Positions 9,314 through 48,603 of a stretch of 64,000 nucleotides of DNA are shown in pieces. Both the position numbers and the translations under genes were made by a program. Position 1 is the stretch's first letter; the number at the start of each line of letters is the position of its first letter. The notes under the pieces were generated by a model. It was not told the DNA's origin and did no database searches. It was given only the letters and a program-made list of their open reading frames with translations. Source of the stretch: Streptomyces sp. OR43 (GTDB lineage: Bacteria > Actinomycetota > Actinomycetes > Streptomycetales > Streptomycetaceae); NCBI RefSeq assembly GCF_008042275.1, contig NZ_RDBK01000025.1:130949-194948 (forward strand), in the 5' to 3' direction.

Positions 9314-9402
9314 CCGGTGCCACGGCACTTCCGGTGTGCGGGCGGGGCGGGCCTGGGCCAAGCTGGACGGGAAACGTGCCTGATTTCCCCCAGGAGGTGC
9401 CG

Positions 9403-10443
9403 ATGGATCCGGTCCGGGCCCTGGAGCGGATCGCCTTCCTGCTGGAGCGCGGCAGGGGCGAGACGTACCGCGTCCAGGCCTTCCGCACCGCCGCCCGCAC
9501 GGTGGCGGCGATGCCGGACGGCGAGGCCGTGGAGCGGGTCACGAACGGCTCCCTGGAACGCGTCAAGGGCATCGGCCCCCGCACCGCCCAGGTGATCCGC
9601 GAGGCGGTCGCCGGACAGACGCCCGCCTACCTGGAGCGCCTGGAGACCGAGGCGTCGCAGAACGGCCCGCTCGCCGAGGGCGGTGAACGCCTGCTCGCCC
9701 TGCTGCGCGGCGACTGCCATCTGCACTCCGACTGGTCGGACGGCGGCAGCACCATCGAGGAGATGGGCCGTACGGCGGCGGAGCTCGGCCACGACTGGGC
9801 GGTCCTCACGGACCACTCGCCCCGCCTGACGGTCGCGAACGGCCTCTCGCCCGAGCGGCTGCGGGAACAGCTCGACGTGGTGGCCGAACTCAACGAGCGC
9901 TGGGCGCCGTTCCGGCTGCTGACCGGCATCGAGTGCGACATCCACCTCGACGGCTCCCTGGACCAGGAGGAGGAGTTGCTGGAACGGCTGGACGTCGTCG
10001 TGGTCTCCGTCCACTCCAAACTGCGGATGGACCCCGCCCCGATGACCCGCCGCCTCCTCGCCGCGGTCCGCCACCCTCAGGCGAACATCCTCGGCCACTG
10101 CACCGGCCGCCTGCTCACGGGCCGCGGCCGCCCCGAATCACAGTTCGACGCGGACGAGGTCTTCGCCGCCTGCGCCGAGGCGGGCACGGCCGTGGAGATC
10201 AACAGCAGGCCCGAGCGACTGGACCCGCCCCGGCGGCTGCTGCGTCAAGCCGTGGACGCGGGCACGCTGTTCGCCGTCGACACGGACGCGCACGCCCCGG
10301 GCCAACTGGCCTGGCAGGCCTACGGCTGCGCCCGCGCGGAGGAGTGCGGGGTCCCGCCGGAGCGCGTCGTCACGACGTGGACGGCGGACGAACTGCTGGG
10401 CTGGACACGGGAGGGGCGGGTGCCGGGCGGGGCGAGGGCGTGA
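9403..10443 (+). CDS. PHP-domain phosphoesterase with helix-hairpin-helix (PolX-like C-terminal type)
   Basis: A 346-aa protein with two parts. The first 100 residues are a PolX-like helix-hairpin-helix region ('ERIAFLLERGRGETYRVQAFR', 'RVKGIGPRTAQVI') that normally contacts DNA. The rest is a PHP metallophosphoesterase: 'HLHSDWSDG', 'LTDHSPRL', 'ECDIHLDG', 'SVHSKL', 'GHCTGR' and 'DTDAHAP' supply the trinuclear-metal ligands. No polymerase catalytic domain is present, so it looks like the 3'-nuclease half of PolX standing alone. The start is well placed, with AGGAGG seven bases before the ATG. A repair nuclease or phosphoesterase role is likely. A histidinol-phosphatase-like activity is less likely. 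Confidence 0.85.
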   Translation: MDPVRALERIAFLLERGRGETYRVQAFRTAARTVAAMPDGEAVERVTNGSLERVKGIGPRTAQVIREAVAGQTPAYLERLETEASQNGPLAEGGERLLALLRGDCHLHSDWSDGGSTIEEMGRTAAELGHDWAVLTDHSPRLTVANGLSPERLREQLDVVAELNERWAPFRLLTGIECDIHLDGSLDQEEELLERLDVVVVSVHSKLRMDPAPMTRRLLAAVRHPQANILGHCTGRLLTGRGRPESQFDADEVFAACAEAGTAVEINSRPERLDPPRRLLRQAVDAGTLFAVDTDAHAPGQLAWQAYGCARAEECGVPPERVVTTWTADELLGWTREGRVPGGARA

Positions 10444-32957: not shown

Positions 32958-35900
32958 TCAGGACGGCGGTTCCCCCGCGGGAGGCAGCACCAGCTCCGCG
33001 AGGTTCAGGAAGGCCTCCGTGGTGGCCGGCCGCAGACGGCCCAGGTTCCAGGTGGACGACTGGAGCGCGGAGTCGAACGGGACGGGAACCACATGGGCCG
33101 CGTCGATCCGCAGACGGTCGGCCAGGTCGGCGGGAAGCCGCCGCCCTCTGCGGCTGTCGACCTCGGACACCACCACGATCGCCCGGTCCGCCAGGTGGGC
33201 ACGCCCCGTCTCCCTCATGCCCGCGAGCGCCTGCACCGCCGCGTTCAGGGACACCTCGGTGGTGCTGGAACAGACGATCAGGGCGTCGGCGTTGTCGAGG
33301 AGCACGTCCGCCGGCTGGTTCAGGTGCAGCGGGGCCCAGTCGCTCAGCACGAACGAGTAGTACGGCGCCGTCCGGGCCAGCACCTGCACATAGTCCTGCG
33401 CGTGGCGGGGATTCGGGCTGATGTGACCCCGGTGATGAGCGAGCACCTCGAGGCCCGAGGGAAGCCGGGTCGTGCAGGCGCGGACCTCCTCGTACGAGGC
33501 GGAGCGCGGCAGCTCCGCCACGTTGCGCAGGACCGCCCGGCTGCGGTTCACGAGGAACGGGTCGAGGCCCCCCACGGACAGGGCTGCGTCAAGGGCGAGC
33601 ACGGGCTCGCCCCGCACCGCCGCCAGCAGGCTGCCGAGGACCATCGTCGTCGTGGCCCGGCCGCTGTAGTGGTAGGGGCCCACCAGGGCCAGCCGTCGGC
33701 CGTGCGACATCGGGACCCGTAGCCGCTCCAGCCGGCCCTCCGCCGCCCGGCGGGCGGACCCGAACCGGGCGAGGCGCGGCCCCGGCCCGCCGGACGGGGA
33801 CGCCTCGTCGCGCGGGGGCAGGTGGAGCGGAGCGGGCGCCGGACGGCGGGCGGCGGCCGGCGGGGGCAGCGTCCCGGCGTCCTCCCGCTGGGGGCGCGTC
33901 CGGGCGATGTACGTGCCGAGGACCTCCGCGACCTCGCTCGCGCTGGGGCGTCGGGCCGGGGAGGCGTCGAGGCAGCGGAGCACGAGGCGGCGCAGCTGCT
34001 CCCACGTGTCGCCCTGCCACCGGTGCATCCCCTCCGGCATGTTGGGCATCTCCCAGCCGGCCTTGCTGCTGATGAGCTGGAGGAGCCCGCCGAGGGAACG
34101 CACGTTGTCCTCCCGCGTCGGCAGGGGGCCCGGCTCCAGGTACTCCCCGTCCACGGCGCAGTCCGAGAGGTTGGCCAGCATCACCGTGCGGCGCAGCACA
34201 TAGACCCCGTCGGCACCGAAGTCCGCCGGCACCAGCCCGTTGATGTGGCACAGGGCCAGCGCGTTCGCCAGGTGGAAGGAGATGAGGAGCCCGCGCAGCG
34301 TGTCGAACGGGGCCACGGACTCCGCGAGCGCCTGGCTGAAGATCTCGTCGAGCCGCAGGGGCTGGGCGTCCCGGGCGGACGGCTCCGCGATGGTGGTCAT
34401 GGCCAGCCAGGGCGTGGAGCCCAGGGTCCCGGTGGCCAGCAGGGTGGGCGCGTACTGCCCCTGGAGCCGGGCCAGGGCCTCCGCCTCCACCTCGATGAGC
34501 CGGCCGGTCTCCGGCGGCAGATCGGGGCGCGGGACACGCACCGCCGCTTCGTTGTGCTGCGCGTCGAAACCCTGGTACACCACCGTGCGGCGCCCCCGGC
34601 GACGGCCGTGCAGCACGAACGCGCCGATCCGCTCGGGATCCTCGGGCAGCAGCGAACCCCAGCTGTCGGCATCGGGTACCTCCCGCTCGGGAGCCGGCCC
34701 GGGACCGGGCGACCGCTCGCCGAACGACACCCCGAACCGGGTGAGCAGCCGCCGCTCCACACTGGTGAACGGCTGGTGCGAGCCGGGGAGCCGGGCTGAG
34801 CCGTCGGGGTGGGACAGCCAGGCCGGGAAGTCGGGGGAGTGGCCGGCCAGTTCATCGAGGCGGCGGCCGATCCGACGGCTCGTCCGCAGGAGCTCGGCCG
34901 GCGGAATCGCGTCGAGCAGGACGGCCTTGGACTCCTCGGAGAAGTCGAAGACCCGGTGCTTCGCCGGCAGCGGACCCGGCACCGGAGCCGGGTGGGGCCG
35001 CAGGAGACCGCCGAGGAAGACCTCGGCGAGATGAGAGGTGCCGGCCCGCCACGGCACCGCGGTCTGCACCAGCCGCATCACCGGAACCGACAGCGGGGAG
35101 ACCGCCGCGAGATGGGCCGCGAGACGGTACGCCTCCGGAGTGGCCGCGTCCCGGAAGTGCTGGGTACTGCCCGCGTCCCGGGCCGGTGCCACCGCCTCGT
35201 ACGGTCCCGGGCGGACCAGCAGCGGCAGCTCGATGGTCGTGCCGGGCGAGGCGAGCAGCCGGGCCCAGTCACCCAGCGACGCGGGATCCGGCGCCAGGAC
35301 CGGTACCGGTATGCCCGCGAAGCGGGCGATGCCCGGCGGCAGCACCGGATCGACGATCCGCCAGGAGGAGTTGGCACCCCCGATCCGCCGGGTGGTGGCC
35401 TGCCAGAGTTCGGCGGAGATCCCGGACGCCTCCCACATCTGCGAAGGCAGGGTGTGCAGGACCGCGACCGGGCCGCGGGCGGCCCGGTCCGCCAGCAGGT
35501 CGTGCATCGCGCCGGACCGCCACGCCGCGCCCATTCCGTCGCTGACCACCAGCAGCAGCGTCCGCCCCGAGGGGTCGTTGACCGTGCTGAGCGGCAGTCC
35601 GGGGCCGTCGGACCGGAACGGCCGCGCGTGCAGGCCCGGCCGTGCGCCCGTGGTGTCCAGCCCCAGGACGCGGGTGGTGGAAAAGGCGCCCAGGCGCTCC
35701 AGCAGGGTGCGCAGTTCGGCCCCGAGCCGGTGCCACAGCAGCATGGACATGCCGTCGTCGACGAGCAGGACCAGATTCAGCCAGCGCTCCCGCACGGGGC
35801 GCTGCACCACGTCGACCAGTCCGGTCTGCGCGAACTCGGCGGCTGTGAGCTCCTCGTCGATCTCCGTGCGATGACGGCTGTCCCGGCGGCGACGCAACGG

Positions 35901-36305
35901 CCGCAGGGAGCGCCCCAGTTCGAGCTCGTCGGAGAGCGCCTTCTCCTCGGGGACCCGTACCGGCATGGCCTTGCGGGAGCCGCGGCCGGAGGGTGCGGGG
36001 AGCGGCTCCGGCACCGGAGGCGGTTGCCGGGCCGCCGCGTACAGGGACGGGGCGGTCAGGTCCGGCAGATCCGCGTCGTCGGGTTCCGGGCCGGGCCGCT
36101 TGAGGGATACCCGGTCCGGTCCTGGGCCGGGTCCGACGGCGGGCGGACGTGTCTCGGGCCGCTCCCGGTGAAGGGGCGCGCCGGGGCCGGCGGGCAGGCT
36201 GCGGGCCAGCCACAGCACGTCCAGGAGCTGATCCGCGTCCAGGTCGTGGCCGCAGGCCGACAGCACCCGCAGCGCCTCGGCCAGCCGTGCCCCGCCGCCG
36301 GCCAT
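32958..36305 (-). CDS. SAV_2336-like protein: vWA, pseudokinase and degenerate SIMIBI/MinD-like domains
   Basis: A 1115-aa multidomain protein, last in a four-gene operon. After a Pro-rich start, residues about 176-345 are vWA-like ('LNLVLLVDDGMSMLLWHRLG', 'TLLLVVSDGMGAAWRSG'), as in SAV_2336-related proteins. Residues about 560-800 resemble a protein kinase, with the C-lobe ending 'RCLDASPARRPSASEVAEVL', but the catalytic HRD is missing ('CHINGLVPADFGADGVYVL'), so it is a likely pseudokinase. Residues about 868-1110 look like a MinD/ParA fold whose P-loop is replaced by 'LVGPYHYSGRATTTMVLG', lacking the usual lysine pair. It starts one base after the MoxR stop. The role is likely scaffold or effector recruiter in a vWA-MoxR conflict system. 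Confidence 0.75.
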   Translation of the reverse strand: MAGGGARLAEALRVLSACGHDLDADQLLDVLWLARSLPAGPGAPLHRERPETRPPAVGPGPGPDRVSLKRPGPEPDDADLPDLTAPSLYAAARQPPPVPEPLPAPSGRGSRKAMPVRVPEEKALSDELELGRSLRPLRRRRDSRHRTEIDEELTAAEFAQTGLVDVVQRPVRERWLNLVLLVDDGMSMLLWHRLGAELRTLLERLGAFSTTRVLGLDTTGARPGLHARPFRSDGPGLPLSTVNDPSGRTLLLVVSDGMGAAWRSGAMHDLLADRAARGPVAVLHTLPSQMWEASGISAELWQATTRRIGGANSSWRIVDPVLPPGIARFAGIPVPVLAPDPASLGDWARLLASPGTTIELPLLVRPGPYEAVAPARDAGSTQHFRDAATPEAYRLAAHLAAVSPLSVPVMRLVQTAVPWRAGTSHLAEVFLGGLLRPHPAPVPGPLPAKHRVFDFSEESKAVLLDAIPPAELLRTSRRIGRRLDELAGHSPDFPAWLSHPDGSARLPGSHQPFTSVERRLLTRFGVSFGERSPGPGPAPEREVPDADSWGSLLPEDPERIGAFVLHGRRRGRRTVVYQGFDAQHNEAAVRVPRPDLPPETGRLIEVEAEALARLQGQYAPTLLATGTLGSTPWLAMTTIAEPSARDAQPLRLDEIFSQALAESVAPFDTLRGLLISFHLANALALCHINGLVPADFGADGVYVLRRTVMLANLSDCAVDGEYLEPGPLPTREDNVRSLGGLLQLISSKAGWEMPNMPEGMHRWQGDTWEQLRRLVLRCLDASPARRPSASEVAEVLGTYIARTRPQREDAGTLPPPAAARRPAPAPLHLPPRDEASPSGGPGPRLARFGSARRAAEGRLERLRVPMSHGRRLALVGPYHYSGRATTTMVLGSLLAAVRGEPVLALDAALSVGGLDPFLVNRSRAVLRNVAELPRSASYEEVRACTTRLPSGLEVLAHHRGHISPNPRHAQDYVQVLARTAPYYSFVLSDWAPLHLNQPADVLLDNADALIVCSSTTEVSLNAAVQALAGMRETGRAHLADRAIVVVSEVDSRRGRRLPADLADRLRIDAAHVVPVPFDSALQSSTWNLGRLRPATTEAFLNLAELVLPPAGEPPS

Positions 36306-36306
36306 G

Positions 36307-37257
36307 TCACATCGCCCCGGTCAGCTGGTGGAGTACGGCGTCCAGCAGGCCCTCCGCGTCCAGGTCGACCCCGCCGGTGCGCAGGAACACGGCATTGAGC
36401 AGCTGGTCGGTGGCCAGCTCTCCGGGGGCCCGGCGGCGCAGGAACGTCTCGATGAGGTCGTCGGCCGCCCCGAGGGCCGCATCCCCGAGGTGGGCGGCGA
36501 CGATGGCCCGCAGCCGCTCCTCGTCGGGCACGGGCAGGTCGAGCCGTACGCAGCGGCGCAGGAACGCGGGCGGGAAGTCGCGCTCACCGTTGCTGGTGAT
36601 GACGACGACCGGGAACTCCGCGCACTGGACGACACCTTGGTGCACCCGGACCGTCCCCCGGTGGTCGAGGGTCTGCACCTCCACATCGGCCATGTCCTCG
36701 GGGAGCCGGGTCAGCTCCGGAATGTCGTAGACGCCCTCCTCGAAGACCGTCAGCAGATCGTTGGGCAGATCGACGTCACCCTTGTCCATCTCGTCGATGA
36801 GCAGCGCCCGGGGAGTCGCGGACGGCACCAGGGCGGTGCCGAGCGGGCCCAGCCGTACGAACGTGCCGATGGACGGCTCGCGTTCGCCGCGGTCCCGGCT
36901 CAGAGTCGTCTCGCGCAGCCGGCCGATCGCGTCGTACTGGTAGAGGGCGTCCTTCACCGTGGACCGGCTGTTGACCGGCCAGCGCAGCAGCTCGCCCAGC
37001 CGGAGCTCATGGGCGACCGCGTGCGCGAGCGAGGACTTCCCGGTGCCGGCCGGCCCGGTCACCAGGAGCGGCCGGCGCAGGTGCAGGGCCGCGTTCACGA
37101 TGTTCGCGTGCTGTTCCTCGATCACGTAGGGCATGCCGGGATGGACTGCCCGGCCCGGAGTGAACCGGCGCCAGGGCGGGGCCGGAGGCAGGGACACGGC
37201 CCGGGGTTCCCCGTCGCCGCGGAAGAGGCGCCAGTCGGCCTCTGGAGCGGATGTCAT
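36307..37257 (-). CDS. MoxR-type AAA+ ATPase
   Basis: A 316-aa MoxR/RavA-like AAA+ ATPase. Walker A is 'LLVTGPAGTGKSSLAHAVAHE', Walker B 'ALLIDEMDKGDVDLPNDLL', sensor 1 'VVVITSNGERDFPPAFLRRC' with the arginine finger at its end. The MoxR insert contains 'FEEGVYDIPELTRLPED'. MoxR ATPases act with vWA proteins to remodel or activate partners. The ATG at 37257 overlaps the upstream protease gene's stop (ATGA), and its own stop is one base before the SAV_2336-like start. It is therefore the core of the operon. The long upstream frame is a shadow of the protease gene. Confidence 0.9.
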   Translation of the reverse strand: MTSAPEADWRLFRGDGEPRAVSLPPAPPWRRFTPGRAVHPGMPYVIEEQHANIVNAALHLRRPLLVTGPAGTGKSSLAHAVAHELRLGELLRWPVNSRSTVKDALYQYDAIGRLRETTLSRDRGEREPSIGTFVRLGPLGTALVPSATPRALLIDEMDKGDVDLPNDLLTVFEEGVYDIPELTRLPEDMADVEVQTLDHRGTVRVHQGVVQCAEFPVVVITSNGERDFPPAFLRRCVRLDLPVPDEERLRAIVAAHLGDAALGAADDLIETFLRRRAPGELATDQLLNAVFLRTGGVDLDAEGLLDAVLHQLTGAM

Positions 37258-39419
37258 GCGCTCTCCTGTGGTTCGGTCAGGTGCAGCCGGGGCACGGTGC
37301 GGTCGGCGTCCGCCCAGGCGAGGACCGGACGGCCGGGAAACTCGGGCGGGCTCGCCTGGGCGTTCGCCCGGTAGTCGCGTACGCCGTCGGGCAACTCCCG
37401 GGTGGCGACGGCCGCCATGTGCTGCGCGAGGTGCGAGGCCCCGTCCCGGCCGCGGTCCCACACCACTACGGGAATGCCCAGAGCGAGACACGTCTGCACG
37501 ATGCCGTCCCGCGGTCCGGGCGGTACGTCCACACAGACGCGCACCGTGTCGAGTTGGTTGACGAGTTTGAAGTAGAGGGCATCGGGGTCCATCGACTCCG
37601 AGACGACCAGGGTCTTCCCCGAATCCAGCCGGCTCCACCGTCGGCGCCAGTGGGAAATGAACCTCCCGTGCCGGCGCAGCAGTTCGGGGCAGTGTACGAC
37701 CAGGGGGAACTCCACACCGAGCACACCCGGCACGATCTCGCCGGGATCGTGCGCCGCCCACTCGTCGACCGGGAGGTTGAGGCTCGCGCGGTCGACGAGC
37801 ACCTCGACCAGGGGCGGCCGCTCGTCGTCGGCCGGCGGCGTCAGGGAGTCGAGGACGCGCAGCACTTCGCGCGCCCCGTCCGTCGCCGAATAGGTCATGA
37901 GGCTGTCCGTGGAGACCTGGCGGGGCCCCGCTCCCTCGTCGCACCAGATCCGCAGCCGGTGGCGGCCCCGCTCGGCACTCGTCACCTGGACCAGGACCCG
38001 CATGCGCGCGGAGCGGTCACGAACCGAGCGGCCCCAGGCCTGGGCGTCCGACCGGCGCTCGCCCAGGGCCGGCCGGGCTATCCCGAGGCGCTGGGCGATC
38101 CCGTCGGCCCACATGCGCAGTTCCGCCCGCTTCGCCGGGGGACAGAGCACGCCGACGTACTCCAGGACGCGCAGCAGCGCCGGGACCCTGCGCTCCCCGC
38201 TCGTGGAGTGACCGTCCCCGGGCAGTGCCTCGAGCCGGTTCAAAAGCGCGTCCAGCGACTCCCCGCCGGGGAAGGCCGGCACATGGGGCACCGCGGCCCG
38301 TGCGGCCTCGGGAATCCGCGCCAGTACGTCGCGGTCCGTGGCCCGCAGGTGCCTGAGCAGTGCCGCGTACTCCTGCGGTGTCAGCAGCCGCGGGACGTCG
38401 CTGAGGGAACCCGCGGCCAGTACGCGGTCGGCGCGAGCCGGGTCGCTGGAGCGCCGCAGGATTCCCGAGAAGGCGGCGAGGGCCCGCGGGTGCGTGAGCA
38501 CGAACAGGGCGAACTCCTCGGGCGAGGGCGGGGTCACGTCGCTTCCCCAGCCGACACCGCAGGCCTGGGCCAGCCGCTTGGCACAGTCCGAGCGCTCGCT
38601 CGGCGAGTACAGCATGTCCCCGATGGCCTCGGTCAGCAGCAGGAGCGCCGGATCCTCGGGTTCCGGAGCCTGCGGAGGCAGGACCCCGTGCAGGCCCACG
38701 GCGTCCAGTTCGCTCCTGACGCGCTGCCAGGGGATCGCCCAGCTGCGCCGCACGAGGTGCTGCGGGCTGTGCGGAAGGGGCAGCCCGGTGGCGCCGTCCC
38801 GGGGCGGCATGAAATGCGCCACGACCAGTCCGACGACCGCCTGTTCACGCCGGCACCACAGCGGACCCCCGCTGTATCCCGGGCCGACCGCCATGCCGGT
38901 CGCCTCGCCGTCCAGATAGCCCATCGAGGGGTGGAGCGAGGCGACGGTGAGCCGGGCCAGCGTCGCGTCCTCGCCGCTGCCGTGCCAGGCGCTCAGTTTT
39001 TGCTCGGTCGACATGTCGGCACGGTCGGGAGCGGCGGGCAGACCACCGGCCGGCCCGTCGACGCGTAACACGGCCAGGTCGCCGAGCCACTCGTTGTCCC
39101 CCTCGAGCACCGCGCCGCCGTCCCTGGCCCGCGGGGCGACCCAGTGGAGCAGGCGCGCGGAGTACGTCTCCGAGCCGCCGTACCGGTCCGCGTACGCACC
39201 GCGCACCACGACGGAGATCTCCTCCAGCCTCGGGGGCCGGGCTTCGAACATCGGTCGGCCGAGTGCGTCATTGACGACGTGTGCGCAGGTCAGGACCGTG
39301 TCGGGGCCAAGGATGAAGCCCGCGCCCGCCAGACCCCCGTCATCGGCGCGCCGCACCGTCACCACGAGGCGGGAGGGATCGTCGTGGTGCCAGCCGCCCG
39401 TGGCTCCGAACCACCCCAT
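37254..39419 (-). CDS. trypsin-like peptidase fused to a vWA-MoxR-associated (VMAP-C-like) domain
   Basis: A 721-aa protein. Residues about 15-240 are a chymotrypsin-fold peptidase with the triad in 'LTCAHVV' (His47), 'LGDLAVLRV' (Asp114) and 'GYSGGPLW' (Ser183). The usual GDSGGP Asp is Tyr. No signal peptide is seen, so it acts in the cytoplasm. A helical middle (about 265-420) precedes a C-terminal domain (about 450-720, 'LRIWCDEGAGPRQVSTDSLM', 'VEVLVDRASLNLPVDEW', 'PVVVWDRGRDGASHLAQ') that I assign to the VMAP-C type of vWA-MoxR-associated proteins. Codon 118 is a rare TTA. An ATGA overlap couples it to the MoxR gene. Confidence 0.8.
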   Translation of the reverse strand: MGWFGATGGWHHDDPSRLVVTVRRADDGGLAGAGFILGPDTVLTCAHVVNDALGRPMFEARPPRLEEISVVVRGAYADRYGGSETYSARLLHWVAPRARDGGAVLEGDNEWLGDLAVLRVDGPAGGLPAAPDRADMSTEQKLSAWHGSGEDATLARLTVASLHPSMGYLDGEATGMAVGPGYSGGPLWCRREQAVVGLVVAHFMPPRDGATGLPLPHSPQHLVRRSWAIPWQRVRSELDAVGLHGVLPPQAPEPEDPALLLLTEAIGDMLYSPSERSDCAKRLAQACGVGWGSDVTPPSPEEFALFVLTHPRALAAFSGILRRSSDPARADRVLAAGSLSDVPRLLTPQEYAALLRHLRATDRDVLARIPEAARAAVPHVPAFPGGESLDALLNRLEALPGDGHSTSGERRVPALLRVLEYVGVLCPPAKRAELRMWADGIAQRLGIARPALGERRSDAQAWGRSVRDRSARMRVLVQVTSAERGRHRLRIWCDEGAGPRQVSTDSLMTYSATDGAREVLRVLDSLTPPADDERPPLVEVLVDRASLNLPVDEWAAHDPGEIVPGVLGVEFPLVVHCPELLRRHGRFISHWRRRWSRLDSGKTLVVSESMDPDALYFKLVNQLDTVRVCVDVPPGPRDGIVQTCLALGIPVVVWDRGRDGASHLAQHMAAVATRELPDGVRDYRANAQASPPEFPGRPVLAWADADRTVPRLHLTEPQESA

Positions 39420-39427
39420 GCCTTACT

Positions 39428-39847
39428 TCACTCGGAGGCCGGCGGTGCGCCGGCCCCCTGGGACGGCACCGGCCGCCAGCTGGCGGTGACCGTGAGGTGG
39501 GCCTGGCCGTTGCCGCCCACGATGCCCAGCTTGAGGTCCTGTCCGATCTGGACACCGAACGTCACGCTCAGCTCGGTGGGCGGCTCCGGCGTGGCGACCA
39601 CGGCGTCGTGGACCTCCTGGAGCAGCGGGCCGACGGGCTTCAGCGCGCCCCGCAGGGCCCCGACCGCGAAACTGGCGACGGACCGGCCCCCGGCAGCCAC
39701 GGGGACGGCCCGCCCCATGCCCTCGGGAAGGTCGCCGTCCCGCTGCTGAGCGGGCGCCGCGGGAGCGGCCCCGGGCGCGGGTGCGAGCAGGAAGCGGACG
39801 GGCGTGCCGTCGTCGAGTTCGATGTCAGGTGTAGTGGACACGACCAC
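39428..39847 (-). CDS. trypsin-co-occurring domain protein (CU044_2847/trypco1-like)
   Basis: A small protein, 139 aa from a GTG at 39847. A GTG at 39841 and a TTG at 39889 are alternatives, and none has a strong ribosome site. It begins 'PDIELDDGTPVRFLL' and ends 'LSVTFGVQIGQDLKLGI' plus 'HLTVTASWRPV', the beta-rich pattern of the CU044_2847/trypco1 domain that travels with cytosolic trypsin-like peptidases. A helix 'LKPVGPLLQEVHDAVVA' lies between. It is the first gene of the operon, eight bases before the peptidase gene. Its likely role is to dock onto or regulate the peptidase. Confidence 0.7.
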   Translation of the reverse strand: MVVSTTPDIELDDGTPVRFLLAPAPGAAPAAPAQQRDGDLPEGMGRAVPVAAGGRSVASFAVGALRGALKPVGPLLQEVHDAVVATPEPPTELSVTFGVQIGQDLKLGIVGGNGQAHLTVTASWRPVPSQGAGAPPASE

Positions 39848-39971
39848 ATTGTCGCCGGACCGGGGGCGCTGAAACGCTGGGCCGGTCAACTCGGTTATGA
39901 GATCGACGCATTGGGCCGGAAACGGCGCCCGGACCGGTGAGGTGTCGCGGCGCCGGACGCCGGCACGGCCC

Positions 39972-40604
39972 TCAGAGCCAGCCCTGCTGCCGGGCCGCCC
40001 GGACCGCCTCCATCCGGTTGCGGGTGCCGGTCTTTCCGATCGCGGCGGACAGGTAGTTGCGGACGGTCGACTCCGACAGATGCAGCTTCACCGCGATGTC
40101 CGCGACCGTCGCCCCGTCCACCGAGGCGACCAGCGCGTCCCGCTCCCGCGCGGTCAGCGGACTCGGCCCGGCGCTCAGCGCCGCGGCGGCCAGGGCCGGG
40201 TCGATGACGGTCTCCCCGGTCAGCACCCGGCGGATCGCCGACGCGAGCTCCTCGACGGGGCCGTCCTTCACCAGGAACCCCGCCGCCCCCGCCTCCATCG
40301 CGCGCCGCAGATAGCCCGGCCGGCCGAACGTGGTGAGGATCAGCACCCGGCAGTCCGGCACCTCCTCGCGCAGATCGGCGGCCGCGTCCAGCCCGCTGCG
40401 GCCCGGGAGCTCGATGTCCAGGAGCGCCACATCGGGCCGCGACGTCAGTGCGGCAGGCACGATCTCGTCGCCCGCGCCCACCTGGGCGACCACCTCGATA
40501 TCGGGTTCCAGCCCGAGCAGCAGGGCGAGCGCGCCGCGCATCATGCCCTGGTCCTCGGCGAGCAGTACCCGCACGGACTTGGTCGGCCGGTGATCCTGCG
40601 GCAT
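39972..40604 (-). CDS. DesR-like NarL/LuxR-family response regulator (orphan here)
   Basis: A 210-aa response regulator. The receiver has 'RVLLAEDQGMMRGALALLL', the phospho-acceptor in 'DVALLDIELPGRSGLDAA', the Thr in 'LILTTFGRPGYLRRAMEAG' and the Lys in 'GFLVKDG'. The C-terminal LuxR-type HTH reads 'LTARERDALVASVDGATVADI' and 'HLSESTVRNYLSAAIGKTG'. An ATG at 40604 or a GTG at 40613 may start it. The long upstream frame is discarded. No kinase is adjacent. A DesK-type kinase with an ABC exporter lies 9 kb away on the same strand and lacks its own regulator, so the two may belong together. Confidence 0.85.
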   Translation of the reverse strand: MPQDHRPTKSVRVLLAEDQGMMRGALALLLGLEPDIEVVAQVGAGDEIVPAALTSRPDVALLDIELPGRSGLDAAADLREEVPDCRVLILTTFGRPGYLRRAMEAGAAGFLVKDGPVEELASAIRRVLTGETVIDPALAAAALSAGPSPLTARERDALVASVDGATVADIAVKLHLSESTVRNYLSAAIGKTGTRNRMEAVRAARQQGWL

Positions 40605-40613
40605 CTCGTTCAC

Positions 40614-41063
40614 GGGGAGCAGCCTAACGACCTCGTGCCCCGCCCTACGCGGCGAGGATCCGGCAATCGCGCTTATCCCGGGGGTGTGCGTGTTCTGCTT
40701 CGCCAAGGACAAGCAGACCGCGCGGACGGCCGGGGAGTTCTGTCCCGGGCCATCAAAGTCATGCGCGGTGCCGAGGCCCTTTCCGCGTACGCCCCCATCA
40801 ACAAGTCGGAAAGGTTCCGTGCGAGAAGGCAAAGCTCCTGCGGATGCCTGCGCCGAAGCCCCTCACCGCGCGAACGGGGCAAAACTTCCAATATTGACAG
40901 TGTGGGATGGACGAACGACGTGGAAGCAGAGGCGCCCCTCGTTTTGACGGTTCGATCTGTGTCGCAAAATCGCCCTCTGTGTTTCGTGAGGCCATTAAGA
41001 TCCGCACGCAGTCAATTGAGTTGCGCCGGTCAATCTGTGCCATGGACCATCGGGGACAAGATC
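40614..41063. other. 450-bp gene-free stretch with AT-rich segments
   Basis: I see no gene here. Compared with the surroundings it is relatively AT-rich from about 40880 to 41040, with runs such as CAATATTGACAG and GCCATTAAGATCC. It contains TTGACA and TTTTGACG boxes, but no matching -10 could be fixed. It lies between the orphan response regulator and the first TIR gene and is the likely left edge of transferred DNA. Confidence 0.5.
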
Positions 41064-43898
41064 TTGGAACGCGACGCCTTCATCTCCTACAGCCATACCA
41101 GAGATGTACCGCTGGCAGAAGCCCTCCAGAAAGGGCTGCAGGGCATCCTGCGAACACCGTGGCTGCACCGTGCGGGAGCGAAGGTCTTCCGGGACACAAC
41201 CAGCCTCGCCGCCGGCCACGACCTGGGCGGGTCGATCAAGGCGGCGCTGGCTTCGTCCCGCTACTTCATCTGCCTGGCTTCCCCCGAAGCCGCGGAGTCG
41301 CGGTGGGTCCGCGAGGAGATCGAGTACTGGCGCACTAACCACGGCATGGAGAACTTCCTCATCGCGGTCAGTGAGGGCACCATCGTCTGGGATCCCGTCG
41401 CGGGTGACTTCGACTGGAACCGGACCAATGCCCTGCCTCCGGTGCTGCGCGGCGCCTTCGTCACCGAACCGCTATGGGTGGACCTCCGGCCGTTCCGCGA
41501 CGCCGACGACCGCTCCATGGCACCAGGCAGCCCGTTCCGCGACAGGGTGGCCAGCCTCGCCGCACCCTTGCACGGCCTGGCGAAAGACGCCTTGGACAGT
41601 GCTGACCTGCGTATGCAGCGTCGCGCCGTCCGCGTCCTCCGAAACTTCGTGGCCGCCCTCACTGTGGTATCACTGCTGGCCGTCGGCGCCGGTGTCTACG
41701 CCTGGCAGAAGCGCGGAGAGGCACTCGCCCGTGCCCGTACCTCCGCCTCGCAGGCGCTGGCGGCCCGCGCACTCGACACGGTCGCCCGGGACCCGCGCAA
41801 GGCCGCGCAGTTCGCGCTGTACGCCCACGAGGTCCAGCCCACGGGCGAGTCGGCGCAGGCGATGGCTCAGGCCGTCGTGGCCAACGGAAGCGTGACCCGG
41901 CACCTCCAGGCCGGAAACGAGAAGGTAGCCAACTTCCACGGAGTGGCGCACGTCAACGCGACCAAGGTTGCCGTCAGCCCGGACGGGAGCGTGCTGGCGT
42001 ACTACTCGGACTTCGATACCGATGCGTCCGGCGAGAAAACACACATCCACCTTTACGACATCGGTGCCGGCAAAGCGCTCCCGAACTTGGAAGGAGGGAG
42101 CTGGCCGCAGGACGGCGGCTGGATGCAGTTCAGTGCGGACGGGAAGTCGCTGGCGGTGGAGGGGCCCTACAACCGGATCGACATCTGGGACGTGGATGCT
42201 CGCCGACGGGTCCGGACCATCGTGACCGGAAAGGGAGAGGACCTGGCCGGCGCCTTCAAGCACCTTTGGGCGTTCTCCTTCTCCCGCGACGGACAACTTG
42301 TCGCCGCCGCGTTCTACACGCCCGACGAGCCCGAATACCGGTTCCATGTGGCCGTCTGGAATGCGAGGACCGGACGCCTGCTGAGCGACGAGACCGGCGG
42401 CACCGTGAATGTGGCCCTCGGTTTCGACGGTTCGGACAGCCTTCTTGCCCTCGACTCCCGGGTCGGTGCGGTCCGTGACTTCCGGCGGGGCGGTGCCTCC
42501 TGGAGCGCCTGGCGGAAGATCCCTGGCTTCCCCGTCGGTGAGAGAAGGCAGGTCACGCTCTCCCCAGACGGATCGAGGGCGTACGTCGGTGAGAAGCGCC
42601 AACTCTGGGATCTGATCGCGGGCCGGAAACTGGCCAGCACCGCCGAGCAGGACATCGGGGCGATTGTGGTGCCTGGCGCACAGGGCGAAGACGCCTACGC
42701 CGCCGCGGGCCGTAGGGTGGGTGTGTACGACGCGGCTCTGCGCCGTACACGTGTCCTCGGCTCCTTCACCTGGCCGGTGTCGAGCGTCTCCGCCTCCTCG
42801 GACGGACAGTGGGTGGCCGCCGGCTCAGGGGACGGCGCCGTCTCCCTCTTCTCAGCCACCAACCTCCGGTTGGGCGTCCCGCTCCAGAACAAACCGCGCG
42901 TCAAGCCCGCCGAACTGGCCGCAGACGATCGCACGGCCTCCCGCACCACGGGATCCGGAACACAGGTGTGGTCCGTCACCGCCGACGGAGTCCGGGAGCT
43001 CGGGCGTCTGCCCCTGCGACTCGTGAGACGATCCCTGCGCCAGGACACCGTCATCGCCTCCCCGAACGGCACCCGTGCGGTGGTGGCCCAAGAGGGCGCG
43101 GTGTCGCTCTGGGATCTGCGCGACGGGAGCCGGACAGGTCGGACGGCGACACTCGACGGCGCGTTCGTGCCCGTGACCTTTCTGCCTGACGGCGACCACG
43201 TGGTCGGAACGACCGACGACGCGGTGCAGGTGGTCGACACCCGGGCGTGGCAGGTCGTCCAGTCCGTACCGTTCGCCCGAGAGGACGTCGATATGGCCAT
43301 CTCTACCAGTCTGGACCGTACGACCCTGGCCCTCGTTCACAACACCGAACTGACGGTATGGAAGTGGACCGTCGAGAAGAATTACCGCCAGGTACGCAAG
43401 GTCCCCATCGAACCCGTCTGGACCATGTACGGGCACCAGGTCGTGGTCAGTGCAAAGGGGGAGAGAGCCGCTGTGATCAACTTCGACGGTCTCATCTCCG
43501 TGCTCGACGTGGACACGGGAGAGTTCGTACCCGGCACGACCGCGTCGAGCGGCATGACGGATCTCGCTTTCAGCAGCGACACGTCCCTCCTCGTCCAGCC
43601 CACCGGTTCAGCTGCGGAGCGGGGCCTGCAGTTCTGGGACGCGGCCACCCTCGAGTCCCGAGGCTCCTGGACGCTTCCGAGTCAGGAGTCCGGTCAGGAC
43701 ACCACGGTCGCACGTCTGCTGGCCGGCGAGGACGGCACCGTGACCACGTTCGACACGGACGGCGGCTTGGTGCGTCGCACCATGGACGTGGCTGCCTGGC
43801 AGAGGACCCTCTGCGATCTGGCGTCCAGCGCGCTCCCGCAGGCGGAGTACGACCGGTACCTGAGTGGTCTGGACGTGGACGCCCCCTGCCCTCGATGA
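41064..43898 (+). CDS. TIR-domain protein with transmembrane helix and beta-propeller
   Basis: A 944-aa protein. Residues 1-145 are a TIR domain: 'ERDAFISYSHTRDVPLAEAL', 'AGAKVFRDTTSLAAGHDLGG', 'YFICLASPEAAESRWVREEIE'. The Trp81-x3-Glu85 pair fits the catalytic glutamate of TIR NADases. A single transmembrane helix occupies about 194-214 ('NFVAALTVVSLLAVGAGVYAW'). The remaining 700 residues are degenerate WD40-like blades ('VAVSPDGSVLAYYSD', 'LSPDGSRAYVGEKRQLWD'). I chose the TTG at 41064 because GGGGA lies upstream and the protein then starts right at the TIR domain. A GTG at 41037 is the alternative. The likely role is sensing outside or at the membrane with a cytoplasmic NAD-cleaving or scaffolding TIR. 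Confidence 0.85.
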   Translation: MERDAFISYSHTRDVPLAEALQKGLQGILRTPWLHRAGAKVFRDTTSLAAGHDLGGSIKAALASSRYFICLASPEAAESRWVREEIEYWRTNHGMENFLIAVSEGTIVWDPVAGDFDWNRTNALPPVLRGAFVTEPLWVDLRPFRDADDRSMAPGSPFRDRVASLAAPLHGLAKDALDSADLRMQRRAVRVLRNFVAALTVVSLLAVGAGVYAWQKRGEALARARTSASQALAARALDTVARDPRKAAQFALYAHEVQPTGESAQAMAQAVVANGSVTRHLQAGNEKVANFHGVAHVNATKVAVSPDGSVLAYYSDFDTDASGEKTHIHLYDIGAGKALPNLEGGSWPQDGGWMQFSADGKSLAVEGPYNRIDIWDVDARRRVRTIVTGKGEDLAGAFKHLWAFSFSRDGQLVAAAFYTPDEPEYRFHVAVWNARTGRLLSDETGGTVNVALGFDGSDSLLALDSRVGAVRDFRRGGASWSAWRKIPGFPVGERRQVTLSPDGSRAYVGEKRQLWDLIAGRKLASTAEQDIGAIVVPGAQGEDAYAAAGRRVGVYDAALRRTRVLGSFTWPVSSVSASSDGQWVAAGSGDGAVSLFSATNLRLGVPLQNKPRVKPAELAADDRTASRTTGSGTQVWSVTADGVRELGRLPLRLVRRSLRQDTVIASPNGTRAVVAQEGAVSLWDLRDGSRTGRTATLDGAFVPVTFLPDGDHVVGTTDDAVQVVDTRAWQVVQSVPFAREDVDMAISTSLDRTTLALVHNTELTVWKWTVEKNYRQVRKVPIEPVWTMYGHQVVVSAKGERAAVINFDGLISVLDVDTGEFVPGTTASSGMTDLAFSSDTSLLVQPTGSAAERGLQFWDAATLESRGSWTLPSQESGQDTTVARLLAGEDGTVTTFDTDGGLVRRTMDVAAWQRTLCDLASSALPQAEYDRYLSGLDVDAPCPR

Positions 43899-44037
43899 GG
43901 GAGGTCTTGAAGGTCTTGTTCCGGCCATTCGCCCGGTCGGGACGCGAGGCGGCGGCATCTCCGTTGCTCCTCGGGGCCGTTGGGGCGGTCGCCTGACCTC
44001 GGGCTGTGCCGACCGGCCGCGCTGCCGTCCCGCTCGC

Positions 44038-46821
44038 TCACTTCGGGCAGAGCGGGCGGGACGCGGGTCCCGTGGGCACACCCTCGTGCCACCGGTCGGC
44101 GGTGAACGCGCCGCCGGCCCACGCGCACAGTGTCCGAACCGGATCCACCGTCGCTTCGACGTTCCACAGCCGGGCCGTGCCGTCGTCGGCCCAGCTGATT
44201 AACGTCCTACCGCTGGGGGCGAAGCCCACACCGGTGACACCCGCACCATGTCCTTCCAGCGGATCGCCGATCTGGCGCCCGGTGGCGATGTCCCAGAGCC
44301 GGACCGTGTGGTCGTGGCCCCCGGTGGCCAGGGTGTTCCCGTCAGGGCTGAACATCACGGACAGGACGCCGCCGCGATGGCCCCGCAGCGGGGCTCCGAT
44401 CCGCTCGCGCGTGGTTGCGTCCCAGAGTCGAACGGTGTCGTCACGGCTCGCGGTGGCGAGCGTCGTGCCGTCCGGGCTCCAGGCCACCGCCGCTATCTGC
44501 GCGGTGTGATCAATCGGGGTCTCGCCGATTCGGCGGCGTGTGGCCATGTCCCAGAACGCCACGGTGTCGTCCTCCGTGACAGTGGCCAGGGTGCGGCCGT
44601 CCGATCTCACCGCGACGCTGACGGAAGAGGGTCCGAGTACCGTGCCTGTGGGAGGCTGCGCCGCCAGGTCCCATACGTGTACGGACTCCGGACCGCCGCT
44701 GACGAGGGTCTTGCCGTCCGGGCTGAACGTCAGCGCACCGGCCTCGCCCGTGTCGAGCAGTGGTTCGCCCACGGGCCGGCGGGCCGCGACATCCTGGAGC
44801 CGTAGCCCGTCGGACCCGATTGCGAGCACCGCGCCGTCGGGGCGGAACGCGAGGCTGGGGCTGAGCTCGTGGGCATCGCGGGCCACCGGGCCGGCGGCCC
44901 GGCGTCGTGTGACGAGGTTCCAGAGGCGCACGTCCTCCTTGGAGTCCACGACCGCCAAAGCCCGCCCGTCCGGGCTGAGCGCTGCCGCGCTCTGTGACCC
45001 CGTGTCGATCGGTGCTCCGGTCTGGTGCAGCGTACGGATGTCCCAGAGACGGACCGTGGTGTCCTCGCTCGAACTGGCCAGGACCGATCCGTCCGGACTG
45101 AAGGCGACGGCACGGGCCGTAGTGCTGTGACCGATGAGCGGGCCGCCCACCAGGCCGCTCCGCCGGAGGTCCCAGAGCCGCACACCACCGTCCTTGTACG
45201 CGGCGGCGAGCATCGCGCTGTCGGGGCTGAAGGTGATCGAACTGATCCCCGGAGAATGGGAAGCGACCGGCTCGCCGATCGGGGTCCTGGCCTCGGCGTC
45301 CCACAGCTGGAGGCCGCCGTCGAAGTCGGCGACCGCGAAGACCTTGCCGTCGGGGCTGAAGGAGAGCGACGTGACGATGCCGCCGCGGCTCTGCAGTACT
45401 CCTCCGACCTGTCTACGGGAGGCGATGTCCCATAGCTGTACGCCGTCCTGGACCGCTCTGGATCCCACACTTCCCTCGGAGTTCATGGCGAGGAACTGTC
45501 CCGGACCGCTGAGCGGCCGGCCGATCTGGCGGTGGGTCGCCAGGTCCCATTCCCGTATGGTCCCCGAGTCGTCCTCGTCCACGGTGACGAGTGTCCTGCC
45601 GTAACGGCTGAAGGCGACTGAAAGAACCGCCCCGGCGGCGGTGACGAAGGGGGCGCCGATCTGGGTGCGGCTAGCGACGTCCCAGAGCCGGACGGTTCCG
45701 TCGAAGCCTGAGCTGGCCAGCGTCCTGCCGTCCGGCGTGAAGGCGATCGACGTGATGCTCTGGTGATGCCCAATGAGGGGTTGCCCCGCCGCCTGCTGCG
45801 TCCTCGTCCTCCAGAGTCTCACCACCCCGTCACCACCGCCGGAGGCGACAGTCCTGCCATCGGGACTGAAAGCCACCGCCTCCACGGGCACCGAATGGGT
45901 GAGCACCCCGGACGCCGGATTGGCCAATGCGTCGAGAACCGCGAAACGGGTCTCCGGAGAAGGACTGATCCGCCACGCGGCCAATGCCTTCAACCGGGCG
46001 GCGAACGGGTCCCGTCCCGCGAGCAAAGAGCTCTGGGTGATCAGTTGTTGGACGACAGCCTGGTCACGCTGTCGGGCGGCCTCGGCACGTGATCGGATTG
46101 CCACCACCGACAGGGTGCTCGCGACCAGCAGCAGAGCGCCCAACGCGGCGGCGACCGCCCTGGCCGTCCGCAGGTTGCGCCGGGTGTCGCGGAGCCCTTC
46201 TGAGCGGAGTTCGTCCTCGGAGAGGCCACGCACGACCGATGCGATACCGAAGGCGACACCTTCGACGTCGGGAGAGAACCCCATGTCACCGTCGGGGAGG
46301 AGGGCCACGGACTTCCAGACGGGTTGCTGCTCGAACTTTCCCCCCAGCCGGGCCGGCAGCGCCGTCGACCGGTGGGGGTCCCAGTCGCCCCGCCGCTCGT
46401 CCCACACCAACTGCCCTGCTGTGACGACGAGCAGGACGGTGTGCACCGACTTGTGCTCCAACCACCACGCGATTTCCCGGTCGACCCACACCGAGGACCT
46501 CGCCTCCGGCGAGGCCAGGACCACGAGCCAGTCGGAACGGTCGAGACCGGCCTCGATCTTGCCCCACAGCTCCGGCCCGATCGACACACCCGTCCGGTCG
46601 AGAAAGACCCGGATACGTGGCGGCTTGTACCAAGGCCGGGACTGCTTCTCGATCACCTGTCGCAGACGCGGCAGCCAGCTCCGGTCGCGCCCGCCGCTGT
46701 AGGACAGGAAGACGCCGTACCCCAGCTCGGTCCTGACCGGTCCGCGGTCGGCCACGGCGGACCGAAGCCAGGCCGATGCCGTACCGAGAGCCCGCCCGCA
46801 CGGCAACCAGCGCGCCGGCAT
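44038..46821 (-). CDS. TIR-domain protein with transmembrane helix and 14-blade WD40 region
   Basis: A 927-aa protein convergent with the first TIR gene. The TIR domain covers about 34-170 ('GYGVFLSYSGGRDRSWLPRL', 'RIRVFLDRTGVSIGPELWG', 'LASPEARSSVWVDREIAWWLE', Trp112 and Glu116 aligned with the NADase position). A helix at about 221-242 spans the membrane. From about 300 onward fourteen WD40-type repeats ('FSPDGRTVASGGGDGVVRLW' and variants) suggest two seven-bladed propellers. The ATG overlaps the lipoprotein stop (ATGA). Leu874 is encoded by TTA at 44200-44202, making translation bldA-dependent in Streptomyces. The biological role is probably defence or signalling. Confidence 0.87.
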   Translation of the reverse strand: MPARWLPCGRALGTASAWLRSAVADRGPVRTELGYGVFLSYSGGRDRSWLPRLRQVIEKQSRPWYKPPRIRVFLDRTGVSIGPELWGKIEAGLDRSDWLVVLASPEARSSVWVDREIAWWLEHKSVHTVLLVVTAGQLVWDERRGDWDPHRSTALPARLGGKFEQQPVWKSVALLPDGDMGFSPDVEGVAFGIASVVRGLSEDELRSEGLRDTRRNLRTARAVAAALGALLLVASTLSVVAIRSRAEAARQRDQAVVQQLITQSSLLAGRDPFAARLKALAAWRISPSPETRFAVLDALANPASGVLTHSVPVEAVAFSPDGRTVASGGGDGVVRLWRTRTQQAAGQPLIGHHQSITSIAFTPDGRTLASSGFDGTVRLWDVASRTQIGAPFVTAAGAVLSVAFSRYGRTLVTVDEDDSGTIREWDLATHRQIGRPLSGPGQFLAMNSEGSVGSRAVQDGVQLWDIASRRQVGGVLQSRGGIVTSLSFSPDGKVFAVADFDGGLQLWDAEARTPIGEPVASHSPGISSITFSPDSAMLAAAYKDGGVRLWDLRRSGLVGGPLIGHSTTARAVAFSPDGSVLASSSEDTTVRLWDIRTLHQTGAPIDTGSQSAAALSPDGRALAVVDSKEDVRLWNLVTRRRAAGPVARDAHELSPSLAFRPDGAVLAIGSDGLRLQDVAARRPVGEPLLDTGEAGALTFSPDGKTLVSGGPESVHVWDLAAQPPTGTVLGPSSVSVAVRSDGRTLATVTEDDTVAFWDMATRRRIGETPIDHTAQIAAVAWSPDGTTLATASRDDTVRLWDATTRERIGAPLRGHRGGVLSVMFSPDGNTLATGGHDHTVRLWDIATGRQIGDPLEGHGAGVTGVGFAPSGRTLISWADDGTARLWNVEATVDPVRTLCAWAGGAFTADRWHEGVPTGPASRPLCPK

Positions 46822-47534
46822 CAGCCGGTCGGCAGGTAGTCGTGACCGTTCCAGCGCAAGGTCACCTTGGCGGTGGCGCCTTCGGCACAGGAGGGATCAC
46901 ACCCCTTGATGGATTGGACGATCGCGTATGCGCCGTCCTTTCCGGGGCCGACCGGCCTCGCGTGGTAGAAGGCGAATCTGCCGCCGCTGTAGTGGTCTTC
47001 CGCGCTCCTCCAGCTGATGTCCGCGAATCCGTCCGCAGTGGGCACGAGTACCAGAACACCGTCGTAGCGACCGGGGTTGTAGACGACGAAGACGTTCCTG
47101 GTGGAGTCGGTCGCCGGAGAGGCGAATCGCAACGGACCCTCCATGCTCCAGTTGGCGTCCACCTCCACGGGTGCCAGCGCGCGCCCCCTTCCGGTGACGG
47201 CCGCCACGCATCCCTGCGGCCGAACGCCGGATACGGGCCGCTGGACCAGAAATACGCGGACCGGCCCGAGGTCCGGATGCCGGATGTCCCGGTGGTCGAG
47301 CGGCCTTCCGGCACACCCGGCGGCGAGGGGCGGGCTCGTTGGGAACGAGGCGTTCGAGGGAGCCGACGCGGTTGACCTGCTCTCAGCCGAGCCACTGCGG
47401 GCCGGCCCGCCCGTATCCGCGCATCCCGCGACGGCCACTGCCGCCAGGGCGGCCGACATCAGCAGGGAGGCCCGAGCCCCGGCAGGGCCACGCCGGAAGA
47501 ACTGTCGGCGTAAAGGCGATGAACTGGAAGACAT
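46821..47534 (-). CDS. lipoprotein of unknown function, coupled to TIR-WD40 gene
   Basis: A 237-aa predicted lipoprotein. An arginine-rich start (residue 8 is encoded by a rare TTA at 47511-47513) precedes 'ASLLMSAALAAVAVAGC', with the lipobox cysteine near residue 38, then a Ser/Ala-rich linker and a domain with several cysteines (about 74, 109, 213, 217). 'VFVVYNPGRYDGVLVLVPTAD' and 'KVTLRWNGHDYLPTG' are the clearest segments. I recognise no family. It is the first gene of an operon with the second TIR gene (ATGA overlap), so it may be the outer-surface partner of that receptor. GAGGGAAC precedes the ATG. Confidence 0.65.
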   Translation of the reverse strand: MSSSSSPLRRQFFRRGPAGARASLLMSAALAAVAVAGCADTGGPARSGSAESRSTASAPSNASFPTSPPLAAGCAGRPLDHRDIRHPDLGPVRVFLVQRPVSGVRPQGCVAAVTGRGRALAPVEVDANWSMEGPLRFASPATDSTRNVFVVYNPGRYDGVLVLVPTADGFADISWRSAEDHYSGGRFAFYHARPVGPGKDGAYAIVQSIKGCDPSCAEGATAKVTLRWNGHDYLPTG

Positions 47535-47823: not shown

Positions 47824-48603
47824 ATGAGCGCAGTGCAGCCCGGAGGGGGACCGAACCAGAGGTTGAGGGTCCTGAAGGGTACGACGCTCCGGCTGTTGGG
47901 CGCGGCGTTCATCGGGGCGCTCACCGGGCTTGCCGTCTTCAGCCTGACCCAGGTCACCAGCCGCAGCCTGTTCGTCATCACCGGTGGCGTGGCGGGGGCG
48001 GCGGCCGTGCTGGCGGTCCAGTGGTACCAGCGCACCGCCCGTCTTACCGAGGTAAAGGTGACGGTCCCCCAGCTGAGCGAGCTGACCTTCACCGTCAACA
48101 ACGATTCCCGGCAGGTGGCCTGGCAACTGTTCGTGGAGACGGTGACGAGGGTCTCCACCCAGCCGCTCGCCAGCGACCAGGGGGTGATCCGGGAGGCGCT
48201 AGGCTCGATGTATGGGCTCTTCGCCACGACGCGCGAGACGCTCAAGGCCAGTCGCCCTTCTGCCGCTGTGCCGAGCGGGCAGACGGTGGAGTACCTGGCC
48301 ATCACGATGCTCAACCAGGCGCTTAGGCCCTACCTTTCCCACTGGCACCCTCGTCTGCAGGAGTTCGAGAGAGAACACCCGGACGGCCAGGAGTCGGCGT
48401 GGTCGCAGAACGCGGCGTGCCGGGCCGCGATGCGGGAGGTCCAACGCGACCTCTACGACTACGCGATCGGCTTCGCCCGCCTCGCGGGTGTACGTGAGGC
48501 CGAGGCGCTGATCGGCGTTGTTCCCGCCCCACGCTCACCCGAGGGCGGGCCGGTCAGCGGCCCCAGGCCCCCGACGGGCGGCGCCACACGTACCCGGGGC
48601 TGA
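47824..48603 (+). CDS. two-TM membrane protein of unknown function
   Basis: A 259-aa protein starting at the ATG after GGGAG. Two transmembrane helices lie near residues 21-40 ('LRLLGAAFIGALTGLAVFSL') and 49-67 ('LFVITGGVAGAAAVLAVQW'). The remaining 190 residues form a soluble, mainly helical domain ('AWQLFVETVTRVSTQPLAS', 'YLAITMLNQALRPYLSHWH', 'AAMREVQRDLYDYAIGFARL'). I do not recognise the family. It is divergent from the lipoprotein-TIR operon across 289 bp and converges on the GT39 gene, overlapping it by 145 bp. The neighbourhood suggests part of the conflict block. Confidence 0.6.
   Translation: MSAVQPGGGPNQRLRVLKGTTLRLLGAAFIGALTGLAVFSLTQVTSRSLFVITGGVAGAAAVLAVQWYQRTARLTEVKVTVPQLSELTFTVNNDSRQVAWQLFVETVTRVSTQPLASDQGVIREALGSMYGLFATTRETLKASRPSAAVPSGQTVEYLAITMLNQALRPYLSHWHPRLQEFEREHPDGQESAWSQNAACRAAMREVQRDLYDYAIGFARLAGVREAEALIGVVPAPRSPEGGPVSGPRPPTGGATRTRG

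Follow-up and report, generated by a model that had tools for sequence, protein, structure and literature searches.

Introduction

Two adjacent genes of Streptomyces sp. OR43, here called A and B, encode proteins in which an N-terminal TIR domain is joined through a transmembrane helix (TM) to a long propeller part. The locus raises three questions: whether the TIR domains are likely to be enzymes, on which side of the membrane the propellers lie, and whether the two genes and their neighbours belong together. The window is the whole stretch of DNA that was analysed (64,000 nucleotides). Coordinates are those of the window; related loci are designated by L and a number.

Domain architecture of the two proteins

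Gene A (41064..43898, + strand) has a TTG start and encodes 944 aa. The protein comprises a TIR domain with W81/E85 (residues 1-190; 41064..41633, +), a TM (about residues 189-213; 41628..41702, +) that is part of a longer predicted helix (174-239), two WD40 propellers of degenerate sequence (276-600 and 601-906; 41889..43781, +) and a C-terminal tail (43782..43898, +) containing C917/C942, the invariant Cys pair. Gene B (44038..46821, - strand) has an ATG start and encodes 927 aa: a TIR domain with W112/E116 (residues 34-218; 46168..46722, -), a TM (about residues 224-242; 46096..46152, -) and 14 WD40 repeats (about 297-890; 44152..45933, -); a Cys pair lies in the tail beyond the repeats. 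The initial annotation had both genes at the correct coordinates and strands, and its Trp-x3-Glu motifs are found at the positions that it gave.

The Pfam TIR_2 profile scores 38.4 bits in A and 39.9 bits in B (cut-off 28), the ThsB_TIR profile is likewise above its cut-off in both, and one hydrophobic helix lies at the end of each TIR domain; the arrangement proposed initially, an N-terminal TIR domain and a single TM in both proteins, is thus borne out. Family members with a TM starting at the TIR end are found in several phyla. In L085 and L090 (two Nonomuraea species), one member of a divergent pair has a larger distance between TIR match and predicted TM than the other family members. L069:1036-3873 is an A-type member with no clear TM at the hydrophobicity threshold used.

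The propeller part of B matches PF00400 (WD40) at 290.6 bits. Its repeats have a period of about 42 residues and number exactly 14, the count already proposed; its best PDB match is 2ymu, a highly repetitive propeller structure. One B relative in a draft genome (L049, about 9200-9500) is broken by a frameshift in the propeller, which may be an assembly error or decay. In A, the Pfam WD40 profile scores 30.7 bits (cut-off 27). The blades of A had been described as degenerate; this holds for the sequence, but AlphaFold2 nonetheless gives two WD40 propellers. The model of A (mean pLDDT 85.1) consists of strands and helices that alternate in a TIR-like manner, the long helix and the two propellers. 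In a fold search with this model, PkwA's WD40 domain (5yzv) fits the first propeller (Z 24.3, rmsd 3.1 over 279 residues), and the Apaf-1 double propeller gives a looser superposition with the propeller part as a whole. The full-model search is filled by propeller matches and therefore gives no TIR rows; the TIR assignment is founded on profiles and predicted secondary structure.

Family, selection and distribution

The source genome (9.1 Mb) belongs to a genus whose other members were searched for relatives. TIR-TM-propellers occur patchily, in about 6% of the Streptomyces genomes searched. Named relatives are mostly from Streptomyces; a few are plasmid-borne (Streptomyces longwoodensis included). 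Related proteins outside actinobacteria are found in Pseudomonadota, Acidobacteriota, Planctomycetota, Bacteroidota and Myxococcota. No relatives of TIR-TM-propellers were found in the phage records and viral contigs searched, and a phage origin is rejected on this ground.

Over TIR-TM, identity between A and B is 34-35%, and a tree of 63 TIR domains places them in separate supported clades (98/92 and 100/97), the B branch being long; as had been supposed, they are not a simple tandem duplication. Between A and its relative L036, identity is 74% in the TIR domain and 52-58% in the propellers, so the TIR domain is the slower-evolving part. Homologues exist for both genes with dN/dS of 0.34-0.40 between relatives. 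On this comparison A and B are under purifying selection; they are functional genes and their frames are not due to chance.

The putative catalytic site

At the NADase position, Glu is found in 63 of 63 family members and Trp in 62 of 63; some of these loci were collected with a pattern that includes some of W-x3-E, which inflates conservation there, and the remaining ones were first found by searches without that pattern. The pattern-type search used a six-row profile because the full family profile has no stretch conserved enough to scan. By sequence, the TIR domains match solved structures weakly (best E 0.00045). The best PDB matches of the family profile are nearly all TIR domains, known NADases among them, and the alignments shown pass through W-x3-E. 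A and B are likely to have NADase activity, to judge from these matches and the motif. The same Glu at the W-x3-E position occurs in the TIR NADases TcpB/BtpA, AbTIR and, in animals, SARM1; these are soluble or otherwise fused, whereas in A and B a TM and a double propeller directly follow the TIR domain and partner genes are present.

Partner genes

The initial annotation recognized the pair of genes but overlooked a lipoprotein gene, a gene for a protein with two TM helices, and the Cys and charge pattern described below. The lipoprotein gene (46821..47534, -; 237 aa, lipobox ..VAGC) is operonic with B and overlaps it: the ATG of B overlaps the lipoprotein stop codon (TGATG) and the two genes are translationally coupled. 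A lipoprotein gene adjoins the B relative at every locus examined (L038, L048, L049, L210, L211 and L215), and overlap with the start codon of B is also seen in relatives. Beside A-type genes it is often absent; those of L036, L039 and L065 have no recognised partner gene.

The second gene (47824..48603, +) encodes a 259-aa protein (2TM-DOM) with two TM helices and an undescribed helical domain (DOM). No confident match was found in Pfam, PHROGs, PADLOC or NCBIfam, the last scanned with a longer frame containing the protein. The predicted fold of DOM is a beta hairpin and a four-helix bundle (pLDDT 86-96 in much of the core). Its PDB matches are generic four-helix bundles, none specific, and the fold therefore indicates no function. 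In 199 genomes, standalone DOM genes number about 21, and 18 of these have a TIR gene next to them or close by. The TIR protein is a TIR-TM-propeller for six; for the others it is of another kind, mostly a TIR-NTPase-like protein whose own C-terminus bears a second DOM. An independent draw of 20 DOM loci gave 15 with a clear TIR neighbour and 1 with a weak one; with both samples pooled, a TIR gene adjoins at about 33 of 41 loci. The DOM family offers an easily applied genomic marker of TIR systems, along with a partner that can be tested.

The 2TM gene was considered as a SLATT gene and rejected: it has no SLATT Pfam match, and DOM also exists without TM segments. The existence of TM-less DOM proteins leaves a pore role of the 2TM protein unsupported. 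In other clades a 2TM protein with SLATT_3 and SLATT_1 matches occupies the same place, and SLATT genes lie beside ten other family members. The type of partner tracks the tree (0 of 500 shuffles gave a value as low). Together, the lipoprotein and SLATT associations indicate concrete components.

A dedicated, adaptor-like DOM accompanying TIR genes would also suit a TIR domain that cleaves no NAD+ and instead acts as a non-enzymatic scaffold, gathering DOM or SLATT proteins at the membrane to signal in development or under envelope stress. Assembly through TIR-TIR contacts is common among TIR domains (PMC7075850), which fits such a role. The Glu invariant throughout the family goes beyond the expected need of a scaffold, and this explanation is considered quite improbable.

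Membrane topology

All 48 actinobacterial members have a C-terminal Cys pair, spaced by about 25 residues in most. In 43 of these 48, an even number of Cys residues follows the TM; the binomial p of 7e-9 overstates independence, since the sequences are related and the effective sample is below 48. Before the TM the total is even in 28 and odd in 20 of the same members, without bias. The tail pair and the even count are also present in 15 of 15 proteins that share the TM-linker-propeller module and have other N-terminal heads. One of the actinobacterial trypsin-nSTAND1-TM-WD40 proteins with this module and Cys pair is encoded in the same genome (L147); as classified by Pfam, it bears a trypsin-nSTAND NTPase head where A and B carry TIR. 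Net charge is higher in the pre-TM part (predicted inside) than in the post-TM part (predicted outside) in 37 of the 43 members where the two differ.

The simplest reading of the Cys pattern is a disulfide that would form outside the membrane. Because of the even post-TM Cys count, the C-terminal pair and the positive-inside charge, the TIR domain is probably cytosolic and the propeller extracellular. For B, the lipoprotein bears on the same point: it is predicted to be exported, so contact with B would be possible only outside the membrane.

To our knowledge, the bacterial TIR proteins of known antiphage function (Thoeris, TIR-STING) act in intracellular sensing and defence. A and B could accordingly be sensors whose TM is a tether only, with propellers inside the cell that bind phage proteins and TIR domains that deplete NAD+ (abortive infection). 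The patchy spread, the plasmid-borne relatives and the sharing of the DOM partner with TIR-NTPase proteins are consistent with this. It is nevertheless held to be unlikely, given the Cys pattern and charge distribution; if B had no outside part, it would also be difficult to account for a coupled lipoprotein that is exported. The topology preferred here remains that of external propellers.

Pairing and gene order

Two adjacent TIR-propellers are found in 7 of the 11 multi-copy Streptomyces genomes, where random placement expects far less than 1. Relatives are arranged singly, in tandem, divergently or convergently; among pairs, the orientation is convergent in the window and L072, divergent in the two Nonomuraea species and tandem in most others. 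The convergence emphasized initially is therefore rejected as a conserved feature and carries little meaning.

Cassettes of B, lipoprotein and 2TM genes adjoin a second TIR-propeller in several genomes. The cassette of L210 is [B, lipoprotein, 2TM-DOM]; that of L211 is [B, lipoprotein, second lipoprotein, second TIR-propeller, 2TM-DOM]. In L038, A is found with [2TM-DOM, lipoprotein, B], the block being reversed relative to A by comparison with the window. Between the window and L038, identity is 43% for the A proteins, which belong to different A subclades, and 81-88% for B, lipoprotein and DOM; this difference indicates that the second receptor is interchangeable. A-type genes occur alone in L036, L039 and L065 and B-lipoprotein genes alone in L048 and L215, so neither type requires the other.

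These same observations would be expected if A and B were independent conflict genes accumulated side by side, each working alone. Such an origin, which is compatible with a receptor function, is given a chance somewhat below even. The frequency of adjacent pairs, far above random placement, and the presence of often one 2TM-DOM gene in a two-receptor locus (L038, L211, L213) speak against it. The pairing of TIR-propellers is real; an exact partnership of A with B is unproven. The earlier suggestion that the two may act as partners is thus sustained indirectly, in that adjacent pairs of different TIR-propellers recur and B-lipoprotein-2TM cassettes adjoin a second one, and weakened by the solitary A-type and B-type genes.

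Near two TIR-propellers in Nocardia takedensis, L095:1595-5755 is a 1386-aa ORF with a DUF4062-like start (by eye). An FO-synthase-like gene (by its N-terminus alone) is close to TIR-propellers of two different types in L037 and L045, possibly a shared insertion site.

Proposed mechanism and comparison with known receptors

The proposal starts from features that can be read directly in the sequences (domain order, TM position, Cys pattern, conserved Glu, partner genes and recurrence of pairs). As a whole, A and B as single-pass receptors that convert an envelope signal into cytosolic TIR NADase activity, with dedicated partners, is judged slightly more probable than its negation. Confidence in clustering, ligand sensing, the roles of the partners and the biological outcome is weak to moderate.

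A and B would be paralogous membrane receptors with the N-terminus inside and the C-terminus outside. The double propeller, closed by the C-terminal disulfide, would bind an envelope or extracellular signal outside the membrane; for B, the co-translated lipoprotein may be a co-receptor, a ligand holder or an inhibitor. Binding might cluster the receptors and bring the cytosolic TIR domains together. These would then cleave NAD+ at the conserved Glu, and the resulting NAD+ loss, ADP-ribose-type signal or both could lead to cell arrest or death. 2TM-DOM may be a dedicated membrane adaptor or the output of TIR, for which the SLATT 2TM protein would substitute in sister clades.

With this layout and these partners, the genes may encode a bacterial receptor system that partly resembles the Toll-like receptors of animals. 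In Toll-like and IL-1 receptors, one TM likewise separates an extracellular recognition domain from a cytosolic TIR domain, if the topology predicted here is correct. The present proteins differ in their N-terminal TIR domain (opposite polarity), in their WD40 propellers in place of LRR or Ig domains, and in the invariant Glu at the NADase position; no evidence was found for common descent of the whole architecture. More broadly, bacteria might widely possess an equivalent of Toll-like receptors in this family: TIR NADases that sense at the surface, often as hetero-pairs, with a lipoprotein co-receptor and a DOM or SLATT membrane partner. This extension is tentative and rather doubtful. If the sensor of these TIR receptors does lie outside the membrane, bacteria would trigger NAD+-based responses from surface cues, in an outside-TM-TIR arrangement shared with animal innate receptors. 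No published description of a TIR-TM-propeller system was found in the literature searched, which is weak evidence (few subscription papers, some narrow queries).

Neighbouring genes and known defence systems

PADLOC found no defence system for the pair, and an antiphage role of A and B is a guess. Thoeris (ThsB/ThsA) is rejected: similarity of the TIR domains to ThsB is weak, the scores are far under the curated cut-off (NCBIfam ThcB4, 20 bits vs 220; PADLOC ThsB, 17 bits) and no ThsA-like gene is present among the scanned window neighbours. A STAND or nSTAND receptor is also rejected, as the TM directly follows TIR and neither A nor B has an NTPase match.

Kaur et al. 2020 (PMC7159879) described the logic of effector-associated domains and the SLATT pairing of conflict systems. 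The present loci resemble those systems in having a non-enzymatic domain in neighbouring genes, one copy being fused to TIR, and SLATT beside TIR effectors; they differ in that DOM has no confident database match and that no MoxR-VMAP core accompanies the TIR-propellers of relatives.

A VMAP-type conflict system lies beside the pair (32958-39889, -) and is unlinked in related TIR loci. It includes Trypco1 (39428-39889, -), trypsin-VMAP-C (37254-39419, -), a MoxR-like AAA gene (from 36307, -) and a gene for a SAV_2336 N-terminal-domain protein (32958-36305, -). A MoxR-vWA-VMAP ternary system was rejected as a part of the TIR-propeller system: it is adjacent in the window and absent from 67 related loci. 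A LuxR/NarL-type response regulator gene (39972-40832, -) is divergent from gene A; similar regulators are near only 4 of the 67 related loci.
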